Assembly: GCA_018831055.1 (NCBI GenBank)
Contig: JAHJRE010000084.1
Span: forward strand, 1 to 32,509
Source of the DNA: Bacteroidota bacterium
Lineage (GTDB): Bacteria; Bacteroidota; Bacteroidia; Bacteroidales; B18-G4
Reading direction: 5' to 3'
DNA length: 32,509 nt
The translations under genes were made by a program, and so were the position numbers. The notes under the pieces were generated by a model, which did not search any database, was not told where the DNA came from, and saw nothing but the letters and a program-made list of their open reading frames with translations. This document shows positions 4,335-22,673 of this stretch, piece after piece (within the stretch, counting starts at the first letter, position 1; each line of letters begins with the position of its first letter).

Positions 4335-4543
4335 CGTAAAACTGGTTTAATAAAACTTTAAATTCCTGCATACCATAATCTATACCTCCCTGCTTTCATA
4401 AAAACCGGGATGCTGTATGAAGAATTTCAAAATACAAGCATGAAGTAAAAACAAAAATACTTTATTTTGCAGGTCAAGCCCGGATTTTAACCGGCAAGTA
4501 TTCAACAAAAACCATGTTTTTTGTTGATAACTCATTCATCGTT

Positions 4544-5089
4544 ATGAGGAAACTGGCTAATAGCGAACTTAACCGTTTATCGTTAGAGGATTACCGTAAC
4601 GCTTCCAAGATGCCGGTCATTATTATACTCGATAATGTCCGAAGTCTGAATAATATTGGTAGTGTTTTCAGGTCAGCGGATGCCTTCCGTGTAGAAGCTA
4701 TCTATTTGTGTGGGATCACCGCCCGTCCCCCGCACCGGGAAATATCCAAAACAGCATTGGGAGCAACAGAATCGGTGAAATGGAAGTATTTTGAAGAAAC
4801 GATCCAGGCAGTTAATGAATTGCAGAAAAACGGATATCGCATCGTTGCCATTGAACAGGCTGATGATAGCATCATGCTGGATAAATGGAATCCTGATCCG
4901 GAGGAAAATATTGCTGTTGTTTTTGGTCATGAGGTTAATGGAGTGCAGGACAATGTTGTGGAGGGGGCAGACTTATGTGTAGAAATACCCCAATTTGGAA
5001 CAAAACATTCTATAAACATTGCCGTCAGTGCCGGGATGGTCATATGGCAGCTTTTTTTGGCATATAGAGATTTTTTGTATGAAAAATAG
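4544..5089 (+). CDS. TrmH/SpoU-family RNA 2'-O-methyltransferase
   Basis: A small SPOUT-fold enzyme that transfers a methyl group from S-adenosylmethionine to a ribose 2'-OH in tRNA or rRNA. The three SpoU motifs are visible: NVRSLNNIGSVFRSADAF, the SAM-loop segment VVFGHEVNGV, and the knot segment IPQFGTKHSINIAVSAGM. An in-frame ATG at 4514 would add ten residues (MFFVDNSFIV). I prefer ATG 4544, since MRKLANSELNRLS looks like the usual family N-terminus and the extra residues do not. About 181 residues is typical of the short, single-domain members such as TrmL or TrmH, but substrate and position cannot be read from sequence. A putative mobile repeat element begins 11 bp after its stop codon. 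Confidence 0.9.
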   Translation: MRKLANSELNRLSLEDYRNASKMPVIIILDNVRSLNNIGSVFRSADAFRVEAIYLCGITARPPHREISKTALGATESVKWKYFEETIQAVNELQKNGYRIVAIEQADDSIMLDKWNPDPEENIAVVFGHEVNGVQDNVVEGADLCVEIPQFGTKHSINIAVSAGMVIWQLFLAYRDFLYEK

Positions 5090-5139
5090 GTTAATGTATT
5101 ATGAGTATCGGGAAAGATTACTATCAAGTTACAGGCGCC

Positions 5140-5244
5140 AGGTTACAGGGTACAGGTTGCAGGTTGCAGGGTGCAGGTTACAGGGTGCAGGTTACAGGGT
5201 GCAGGTTGCAGGGTGTAGGTTTCAGGTTGCAGGGTGCAGGTTGC
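5140..5244 (+). repeat. Heptamer tandem repeat, 15 units of AGG(G/T)T(A/G/T)(C/T)
   Basis: Fifteen uninterrupted 7-bp units starting at 5140. The variants are AGGTTGC, AGGGTGC, AGGTTAC, AGGGTAC, AGGGTGT and AGGTTTC, with variation limited to positions 4, 6 and 7. A degenerate unit AGGTAGT follows. Open frames through this tract give artificial proteins with YRLQVAGCRLQ-like repeats and are not genes. Confidence 0.95.
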
Positions 5245-5277
5245 AGGTAGTTTGGGTGGGAGCTTTGAGTTTTGAGT

Positions 5278-5312
5278 TGTAACCTGAAACCTGAAACCTG
5301 AAACCTGAAACT
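5278..5312 (-). repeat. Inverted heptamer array (TGAAACC units)
   Basis: Five 7-bp units from 5278: TGTAACC, three copies of TGAAACC, then TGAAACT. The complement is (AGGTTTC)n, a variant that also occurs once in the forward array at 5217. The two arrays therefore face each other and could pair into a long imperfect hairpin. Two copies of TTTGAGT (5264-5277) lie in the spacer. Confidence 0.92.
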
Positions 5313-5513
5313 TTGCTTCCATGTTTCCCGATACTCATTTAATGTAATAAGCATTGAAACAATAAAAGTTATTTTCACGTATGAACATTGATCATTAAAA
5401 TATTGTTAAATAAACCGGGCAATAGATATGTTTCCGGGGTGTTTTTTTATATTTTTGCAGGATTATTAAACAAAAAAAAAGCATCCGTTATTTTCTATTT
5501 TGATTTTATATCG

Positions 5514-5571: not shown

Positions 5572-8070
5572 ATGAAAAAGAATTACAGTGCTGCCTTGAA
5601 GTTCCTGGCTATCATTCTTTTTGGTGTTCTGCCCATTCTAATGATGGGACAGGAAGCCGGAGATAAAGCCTCGAAAAAATCTACCTCTTTTTCCCGTTAC
5701 TGGTTTGCTAATATCAACGCGGGAATAAGTCTTGCCCACACTGATGTTTCAAATAATCTGGTGCTCCCTCCAACAGAAACCTGGCGGATGGGCTTTGGTG
5801 CCAATGCCGGATGGCAATTTCTGCCATTTTTGGGTGCTCGTGCACAGGTATCCGGTGGTTGGTTGAATGGTGAAAAATCAAAAATGGCTGAGCATAATTA
5901 CAGAGATGTATACTTCGATGCCGATTATTTTGATTATCACCTGGCCGGAACAATCAGTTTTACCAATATGTTATTTGGATATAAGGAAAGACTTATCAAT
6001 TTTTATGGTATCGTCGGATTTGGTCAGATACAGTTCAAAACGAAACTTAAGGATTCTGAAACCGGTTTCCTTTATGCAAAAAACGGATATAGCGGAGATG
6101 TTATCGGACCAAGCGGAAAAGGAGATAAATCAGGCTTTTTCAACAGAACAATGGTTTGGTCTGTTCCCGCAGGTATAGGATTTGCTATCCGTGCTTCCGA
6201 AAAAGTGGATATCACCCTGGAAAGCCAATGGAAATGGACAGATACTGAGCGCCTTGACGGAGTCATCGTAAAACGCGATTATCCTGTTAAAAACGATATG
6301 TACAGCTATACCAGCCTTGGTATTACATACAAATTCGGTTTTTCCGGTGGTTTAAAGAAAATGGAAAAGGATTTCGAACTGGTTACGCTTAAAGCTACTC
6401 CGGATCCTGTGGAAGCTATCGGCGATTCCGTTGAAATTACATTTTCCGGTACGGTTCCTCCCAAGTATTTCGATAAGAAATCCGCAATGTACCTTGTCCC
6501 AGTCCTTACCTGGCCAGGCGGCGAAGCTGTATATGATCCAATCACTCTGAAAGGTGAAGATGTTATAGGTGAAGGACAGATGATCAATTACAAGAATGGC
6601 GGCTCATTCAGCTACAAAACAACAGTTCCCTATGAACCTGGTATGAACGCTTCCGACCTTGTGGTTGTTCCCGTGATCTATCAGGTTAAGGAGAAGACAT
6701 ATGCCAACAAAGATGAGATCAAGGAACAGGCAAAGTTTGTTGAACTGCCGGCCCGCAAACTTGCTGATGGTGTTATTTACACCTCCCGTATGATCATGAA
6801 TGATCAGCTAACCATTGCTGGTGCTCATGGCTATCAGAAAGAGGTCATTGTTACCAAAAAGGCTATGATATACTTCTTTGTTAACCGCTTTGATCTAAAT
6901 TGGAGAGCTCCTCTGAACAAGCTTGACGAGAACAAGAGCAAACTGACCGAGATATCTGAGTTTATCGCCGGTGGATGGAAAATCCGCGACATTCAGATCG
7001 ATGGTTGGGCATCTCCCGAAGGTGAAGAGACATTTAACAACGACCTCTCTGAAAAGCGTACAAATACTACGTACAATTACATGATTGCCGAGATTAAAAA
7101 GATTGCCAAGAAAAAAGATTCAAGGGTAGCTATCAAAGACCCAAAGACAGAGATCACATTTAATCTTAAATGGCATGGTCCGGACTGGGAAGGCTTCCTG
7201 GCCAATGTTCAGCAATCGAATGTTAAAGACAAAAATGCCATCCTGAATGTTATCCGTAGCGCTGCTCCGAGCAAACGCGAAGAGGAGATCCGCAACATGA
7301 TCCTGATCTATCCTGAGATAGAAGAAAATATGCTGCCTCCATTGCGTCGTACCGTTATTGCAGTTAACTGCTACGAACCGAAACGTCCGGATGAGCAGAT
7401 CAAGGCTTATGCAATGCAATATCCTGATTCCCTTAAAGTGGAAGAATTGTTGTATGCTGCAACTATGTACGATGATAACGAAAGTAAGCTGAAGATTTAC
7501 AAGACTACTTTCTCCATTTATCCGAATTGCTGGACCGCCTATAACAATGCCGGTGATGCTGAACTGGCAATGGGTAACGTAGCCGGTGCTGAATCAATGT
7601 TCCGCAATGCCGACAGCAAATCCCCGAATAACGGAATTGTTAAGAACAATCTCGGAGTTATTGAATGCCATAAAGGAAACTATGAAAGTGCTGAGTCATA
7701 CTTCAAGAATGCACAGCAATTGGGTGAGAATGTTAATTATAACCTCGGAACCCTTGAGATCCTGCATGGTAACTTCAGCAAAGCATTACAACTTTTCGGA
7801 AGCACAAAGTGCAAGTACAATGTCGGACTGGCCCAGCTCATGAGTGGCAATACCAGTGCAGCAGAAAGTACACTGAAATGTGCTCCGCAACATCCTGAAA
7901 CATATTATCTGCTCGCTATCGTTGGTTCACGCACCGACAATACCAGCCTGATGTATGAATATCTTGGCAAAGCAATCAGTGGGGATCCTCAACTGGCTGC
8001 CCGTGCAAAAGACGACCGCGAATTCATTAAGTATTTTAATGCTCCTGAATTCCAAGCTATTGTGCAATAA
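5572..8070 (+). CDS. Outer-membrane beta-barrel protein with OmpA-like domain and C-terminal TPRs
   Basis: An 832-residue envelope protein in three parts. A signal peptide (about residues 1-26, MKKNYSAALKFLAIILFGVL then PILMMG) is followed by alternating amphipathic strands up to about residue 260 (RYWFANINAGISL to YTSLGITYKFGF), consistent with an eight-strand-type barrel. A beta-rich middle region (about 265-415) leads into an OmpA/MotB-like segment whose GWASPEGEE motif lies at 478-486, followed by NNDLSEKRTNTTYNYM. This segment is expected to bind peptidoglycan. Residues of about 640-820 form tetratricopeptide repeats (AYNNAGDAELAMGNVAGAES, then NNLGVIECHKGNYESAESYF). Similar barrel/OmpA/TPR proteins are common in Bacteroidetes, but their specific role is not known to me. 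A strong terminator follows, so the gene is probably transcribed alone and may be abundant. Confidence 0.85.
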   Translation: MKKNYSAALKFLAIILFGVLPILMMGQEAGDKASKKSTSFSRYWFANINAGISLAHTDVSNNLVLPPTETWRMGFGANAGWQFLPFLGARAQVSGGWLNGEKSKMAEHNYRDVYFDADYFDYHLAGTISFTNMLFGYKERLINFYGIVGFGQIQFKTKLKDSETGFLYAKNGYSGDVIGPSGKGDKSGFFNRTMVWSVPAGIGFAIRASEKVDITLESQWKWTDTERLDGVIVKRDYPVKNDMYSYTSLGITYKFGFSGGLKKMEKDFELVTLKATPDPVEAIGDSVEITFSGTVPPKYFDKKSAMYLVPVLTWPGGEAVYDPITLKGEDVIGEGQMINYKNGGSFSYKTTVPYEPGMNASDLVVVPVIYQVKEKTYANKDEIKEQAKFVELPARKLADGVIYTSRMIMNDQLTIAGAHGYQKEVIVTKKAMIYFFVNRFDLNWRAPLNKLDENKSKLTEISEFIAGGWKIRDIQIDGWASPEGEETFNNDLSEKRTNTTYNYMIAEIKKIAKKKDSRVAIKDPKTEITFNLKWHGPDWEGFLANVQQSNVKDKNAILNVIRSAAPSKREEEIRNMILIYPEIEENMLPPLRRTVIAVNCYEPKRPDEQIKAYAMQYPDSLKVEELLYAATMYDDNESKLKIYKTTFSIYPNCWTAYNNAGDAELAMGNVAGAESMFRNADSKSPNNGIVKNNLGVIECHKGNYESAESYFKNAQQLGENVNYNLGTLEILHGNFSKALQLFGSTKCKYNVGLAQLMSGNTSAAESTLKCAPQHPETYYLLAIVGSRTDNTSLMYEYLGKAISGDPQLAARAKDDREFIKYFNAPEFQAIVQ

Positions 8071-22626: not shown

Positions 22627-22668
22627 ATCGGAGATCGGAGATCGAAGATCGAAGATCGGAGAACGGAG
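22627..22668 (+). repeat. Heptamer tandem repeat, six units of A(T/A)CG(G/A)AG
   Basis: Six uninterrupted 7-bp units: ATCGGAG twice, ATCGAAG twice, ATCGGAG, AACGGAG. The array fills the space between the tRNA-His terminator and the DUF4340 stop codon (22674-22676). TCGGAGATC in the array is also found inverted as GATCTCCGA (22682-22690) within the last codons of that gene, so a hairpin could form across its stop. The period is the same as in the 5140 array, with an unrelated unit. Confidence 0.92.
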
Positions 22669-22673
22669 AACCG

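Follow-up and report, generated by a model that had tools for sequence, protein, structure and literature searches.

Directly behind an rRNA methyltransferase gene in a 32,509-nt stretch of Bacteroidales DNA (the window), facing arms of tandem heptamers are enclosed by inverted repeats, which raises the question of whether such an array is carried by a transposable element, spreads by itself or is a selected hairpin. The first-pass annotation had described a MITE-like cassette, and its coordinates and sequences were right: the segment at 5101-5338 is 238 bp long, has perfect 15-bp terminal inverted repeats (TIRs), contains heptamer arms and no credible gene, and lies between flanks, TTAATGTATT and TTAATGTAAT, that are identical at 9/10 positions. 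The segment and its immediate surroundings are composed as follows.

4514 to 5089, forward strand: SpoU-type rRNA methyltransferase gene, the upstream neighbor (PF00588, E 2.5e-32); its orthologue in genome G002 is 65% identical, making it a conserved anchor for the empty site
5091 to 5100, forward strand: left copy of the target-site duplication, TTAATGTATT in direct reading; the duplication is significant over 32 copies
5101 to 5115, forward strand: left TIR, perfect over 15 bp, ATGAGTATCGGGAAA, with imperfect similarity continuing to about 5130
5128 to 5248, forward strand: forward arm, made up of ~16 CAGG(T/G)TN heptamers (15.7 copies by Tandem Repeats Finder, 16 units counted)
5249 to 5279, forward strand: spacer or loop, AGTTTGGGTGGGAGCTTTGAGTTTTGAGTTG, also heptamer-like (TTTGAGT); other copies have equivalent spacers
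5280 to 5311, reverse strand: inverted heptamer arm, about 4 units of NAACCTG (Tandem Repeats Finder), which pairs with the forward arm
5324 to 5338, reverse strand: right TIR, perfect over 15 bp, TTTCCCGATACTCAT
5339 to 5348, forward strand: right copy of the target-site duplication, TTAATGTAAT
5572 to 8070, forward strand: gene for a TPR-containing protein, the downstream neighbor, whose start served as the other anchor in the empty-site comparison (the G002 alignment reaches the start codon)

The segment begins 12 bp 3' of the methyltransferase gene and leaves 233 bp to the TPR-protein gene. The single open reading frame of at least 80 aa across it, an 87-aa TTG-started frame that covers 5019-5282 and partly coincides with the methyltransferase gene, was taken as spurious. 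By Tandem Repeats Finder, the tandem core of the forward arm (5139-5248) comprises 15.7 heptamers with 79% matches, and the inverted arm, scored at 5281-5311, comprises 4.4 heptamers with 100% matches. No perfect 15-bp inverted pair within 300 bp arose in 50 shuffles of the window. A further heptamer array (ATCGGAG x6) is present at 22627-22669 of the window without transposon ends.

The ends recur elsewhere in the 4.19-Mb host genome, a check that the first-pass annotation had proposed. The 15-mer end occurs exactly 15 times, and searches with a 20-mer from both ends (up to 3 mismatches) gave 84 matches compared to 0 for the reversed control. These matches fall into about 55 places and represent at least 55 dispersed, intergenic copies of a gene-less element; several single ends sit at contig boundaries, a place where repeats are expected. 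Both ends were recovered for 33 complete copies, whose lengths of 104-238 bp fall within the 50-1000 bp of MITEs. All of them share one order, namely TIR, CAGGTTN heptamers, spacer, NAACCTG heptamers and TIR, with the CAGG arm preceding the CCTG arm in 33/33. Family-wide, the inverted repeat extends over ~30 bp, is imperfect and has two alternative ends (ATGAGTATCGGGAAACATTAACACAAAGTT and ATGAGTATCGGGAATGATTAATATCAAGTT). Median pairwise identity among copies is 86%, and the copies are old. Forward units number 1 to 16 and inverted units 1 to 12 per copy, and the window copy is the longest of the complete set owing to its forward arm. Among element lengths, values of 1 mod 7 are favored (11/25 canonical copies; 141, 148, 155, 169 and 183 bp), a clustering that is partly due to shared descent; together with the varying unit counts, these lengths are compatible with gain and loss of whole units. 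At one contig end (L071:1-53), a family end leads into a different heptamer array (GGGGGCT).

Outside of the host, the end pattern had a single, chance-like match in 40 relatives, and 84,980 scanned genomes contributed three contigs from two other MAGs, so that the pattern is essentially private to the host species. Viral contigs gave no match. An end match in G022 (L045) was dismissed as chance, having no partner end and reading like coding sequence.

The flanks of the copies were used to examine target duplication. Across the inner 8 bp, flanks of the same copy were 78% identical compared to 49% for shuffled pairs (z ~10), and exact 8-bp pairs were observed for 8/32 copies where 0.24 were expected. 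The match reaches 10 bp, less perfectly, and the flanks are 93.9% A/T compared to 57.2% in the surrounding DNA, describing an A/T-rich duplication of 8-10 bp. The number of TIR mismatches did not correlate significantly with the quality of the duplication (rho -0.21, p 0.25), and TIR decay was therefore dropped as a clock for duplication decay.

An empty site was located in G002, a genome of the same genus, at the position that the first-pass annotation had singled out, behind the methyltransferase gene. There, the same downstream gene lies a short intergenic distance behind the orthologue. Since a plain MAFFT alignment of filled and empty sites spread the gap over the element, the window flanks were instead joined with one duplication copy removed and compared to G002, which gave a score of 265 (37 when shuffled). 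This alignment crosses the junction uninterrupted up to the start of the TPR-protein gene, the duplicated stretch is single-copy in G002, and the site is without ends and without array alike. The orthologous site in G001 also lacks the element, with a less clean alignment than that of G002.

To identify elements with related ends, 393 genomes of the order were searched, which returned scattered single matches and ~1-kb elements in G343 (L147:1501-2510) and G336 (L169:214-1226). Both have similar ends and one transposase gene each (L147:1529-2506 in G343), encoding IS1595-family transposases (NF033547, E 9e-61; PF12762 plus zinc ribbon PF12760). The G343 IS ends agree with the consensus of the MITE ends at 25/30 and 24/30 positions, and IS1595 homologues in the order have ends mostly of the form ATGANTRTCSG. 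Among 13 IS elements with both ends, flanks were identical at 8/8 positions in 6/13 (z 5.4; the signal peaks at 10 bp), a duplication register common to the IS1595 elements and the MITE copies. Duplications of IS1595 family members are usually 8 bp (PMC8101967), and 8-bp A/T-rich duplications were demonstrated experimentally for ISEc69 (PMC7835479).

The transposase sought by the first-pass annotation, one whose element shares these ends, thus exists in other Bacteroidales; protein and Pfam profile searches of the 96%-complete, fragmented host assembly found no IS1595 transposase. IS1595-type elements often drop out of fragmented assemblies, and a host copy could be missed, as illustrated by G004 of the same family, where contig L134 holds an IS1595 left end and the first 28 codons of a transposase gene before being cut by the contig end.

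Several findings uphold the MITE reading of the first-pass annotation: the family is dispersed and has a shared plan, its target-site duplication is solid, an orthologous site is empty, and IS1595 elements of other Bacteroidales have corresponding ends and duplications. On the other side stand the missing host transposase, the age of the copies, the non-significant correlation between TIR mismatches and duplication quality, and the share of common descent in the length clustering. Overall, the segment is very probably a non-autonomous IS1595-family MITE that encloses a captured heptamer hairpin, and it belongs to a new, well-supported MITE family with an unusual interior.

The relation of the array to these ends was assessed by following the heptamers alone. 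A pattern of three consecutive CAGGTTN units matched 458 times in the host genome compared to 0 for the control. When 20 array places were chosen for being away from known ends, 14 lacked an end even when 6 mismatches were allowed, and the remaining places resembled decayed or partial copies; the forward-then-inverted layout is also found in many end-less arrays. Across the order, CAGGTTN arrays were present in 42/247 genomes from many families (the reversed control was nearly absent), and comparison with the end search showed that most of these 42 genomes are without the ends. Ten array-rich genomes looked up in the results of that search (G083, G084, G091, G098, G110, G139, G163, G181, G186 and G220) have no match to the ends. 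A second heptamer unit, CCAGTAN, is patchily distributed (25/247 genomes), and in a sample of tandem repeats a period of 7 was dominant in several genomes of the host's family, with many different units. The heptamer array is therefore not bound to the IS1595-type ends, and an IS1595-type MITE with one captured heptamer hairpin is the best description of the element. The proposal that the array is moved as cargo accordingly stands for the complete copies, 33/33 of which contain it, but does not extend to the array at large, as most arrays inspected at a distance from known ends had no trace of these ends and many genomes have the array without the ends.

Two side observations concern heptamer arrays in other genomes. 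In G006, of the same family (L277-L281), such arrays are very dense (~160 per Mb; the units include CCAGTAT and TAGGCGG), and two genomes of the same genus are low. Patchy CAGGTTN/NAACCTG hairpins without IS1595 ends were also seen in unrelated families of the order (L309-L338).

Because CAGGTTN arrays are commoner than the ends, both in the host and across the order, the heptamer hairpin could be taken as the primary, self-spreading repeat, with the IS1595-like ends as passengers that bracket some copies. We consider this improbable: the duplication abuts the TIRs precisely on their outer side, the empty site lacks the ends and the array together, and inspection of free arrays revealed no ends common to them. 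Somewhat less probable still is that the copies are selected regulatory hairpins (i.e., terminators or RNA elements) spread by recombination rather than transposition. Their intergenic location and the strong predicted RNA fold of the whole window element (z -7.65) agree with such a role, and despite this fold a conserved terminator or RNA element was rejected as an identity. A crude ORF-based count placed 17 copies between tandem, 12 between divergent and only 1 between convergent genes (n=30), the unequal arms of the window copy (16 forward units, 4 inverted) mean that full pairing is not kept, and there is no reason to expect regulatory hairpins to be flanked by a target duplication. If the copies were palindrome elements of the REP/RAYT or another type, mobilized by a Y1 (IS200/IS605) transposase, they would likewise be short, intergenic, hairpin-forming and dispersed. 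This reading is ruled out by the presence of both TIRs and a target duplication and has next to no standing, as Y1 elements are not known to have TIRs of such kind or to duplicate their target. Judged by eye, the heptamer also does not fit an integron attC site (GTTRRRY/RYYYAAC).

For the IS1595-family MITE, the following course of events can be proposed. Degenerate heptamers (CAGGTTN facing NAACCTG) in a hairpin-forming array would have come to lie inside a progenitor, and the array, being enclosed, would be copied at every transposition. Mobilization by an IS1595 transposase is likely, and the enzyme would act in trans on the ATGAGTATCGGGAA.. ends. At the locus studied here, the element would have inserted into an A/T-rich site right behind the methyltransferase gene, with ~8-10 bp of target being duplicated. 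After or between insertions, the array may gain and lose whole 7-bp units via replication slippage. The transposase would either have been lost from the host or be missing from the assembly; as none was found there, ongoing mobility of the MITE is something we only infer.

Other hairpins have been found within ends of this type. In G154 (L163-L167), MITEs with ATGACTATCGGGAAAGATTA-type ends include some whose interiors are CATTGCGAGGAACGAAGCAATC-type hairpins, and the CATTGCGAGGAACGAAGCAATC hairpin has 21 matches in this genome, most of them at a distance from the end matches detected. In the Umea MAG (L132:5271-5462, L133:1-459), an element with the same ends surrounds a CCTCCTTTTGAAGGAGG hairpin. 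These varied interiors are few examples and constitute a lead. It is conceivable, though we hold it to be rather doubtful, that Bacteroidales IS1595-type ends recurrently enclose whichever hairpin-forming intergenic repeat abounds in the host, with heptamer hairpins being an independent, patchy repeat across families. If true, MITE capture would be a dispersal route for simple-sequence arrays. Many bacteria have heptamer arrays in excess, and what scatters one unit over a genome or over distant taxa is at issue. For one such array, the MITE family provides a concrete, testable vehicle: its ends are defined, its target duplication is known, a transposase family is a candidate for moving it, and an empty site has been located. 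Its reach is limited, since the same array is common without MITE ends.

Cyanobacterial STRRs, which the first-pass annotation had named, also have a 7-bp period. Their unit differs from that found here, where some arrays lie inside a transposable element. IS1595-family ISs of the ATGANTRTCSG-ended Bacteroidales subgroup resemble the MITE in terminal sequence and in the register of their A/T-rich target duplication, but are ~1 kb, whereas the MITE is 104-238 bp long, is without a transposase gene and has an interior unrelated to the IS. Facing heptamer arms within IS1595 ends were not found described in the open-access literature, to which the search was confined.

TAACTGA heptamers of Beggiatoaceae, Cyanobacteria and some Bacteroidetes are likewise intergenic arrays with a patchy distribution over distant taxa, and are absent at the same locus in near relatives; no transmission mechanism was evident (PMC4679880). 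They differ in their unit and in being almost exclusively direct repeats without ends (PMC4679880). The nearest precedents are the inverted heptamers of Xanthomonas and BrickBuilt of Porphyromonas. Published passages on GGGAATC/GGGGAYT arrays in Xanthomonas and Nostoc describe degenerate, intergenic and dispersed heptamers, with 70-75 cases of convergent inverted pairs in Xanthomonas (PMC4692102); the unit differs from CAGGTTN, and these passages make no mention of transposon ends (PMC4692102). BrickBuilt of Porphyromonas gingivalis is a MITE with an internal tandem repeat, present in 19 intergenic copies with no transposase inside, for which other strains have an empty site; its 23-nt unit runs in one direction, and its ends are IS5-type with variable short duplications (PMC4596501). 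The window element is not BrickBuilt itself, as both the ends (GAGACCTTTGCA in BrickBuilt) and the unit differ. It does share with BrickBuilt the make-up of a transposase-free, intergenic Bacteroidales MITE with an empty site and a tandem-repeat interior (PMC4596501), here with CAGG and CCTG units in 33/33 copies, and is distinguished by 7-nt units, two facing arms and IS1595-type ends.
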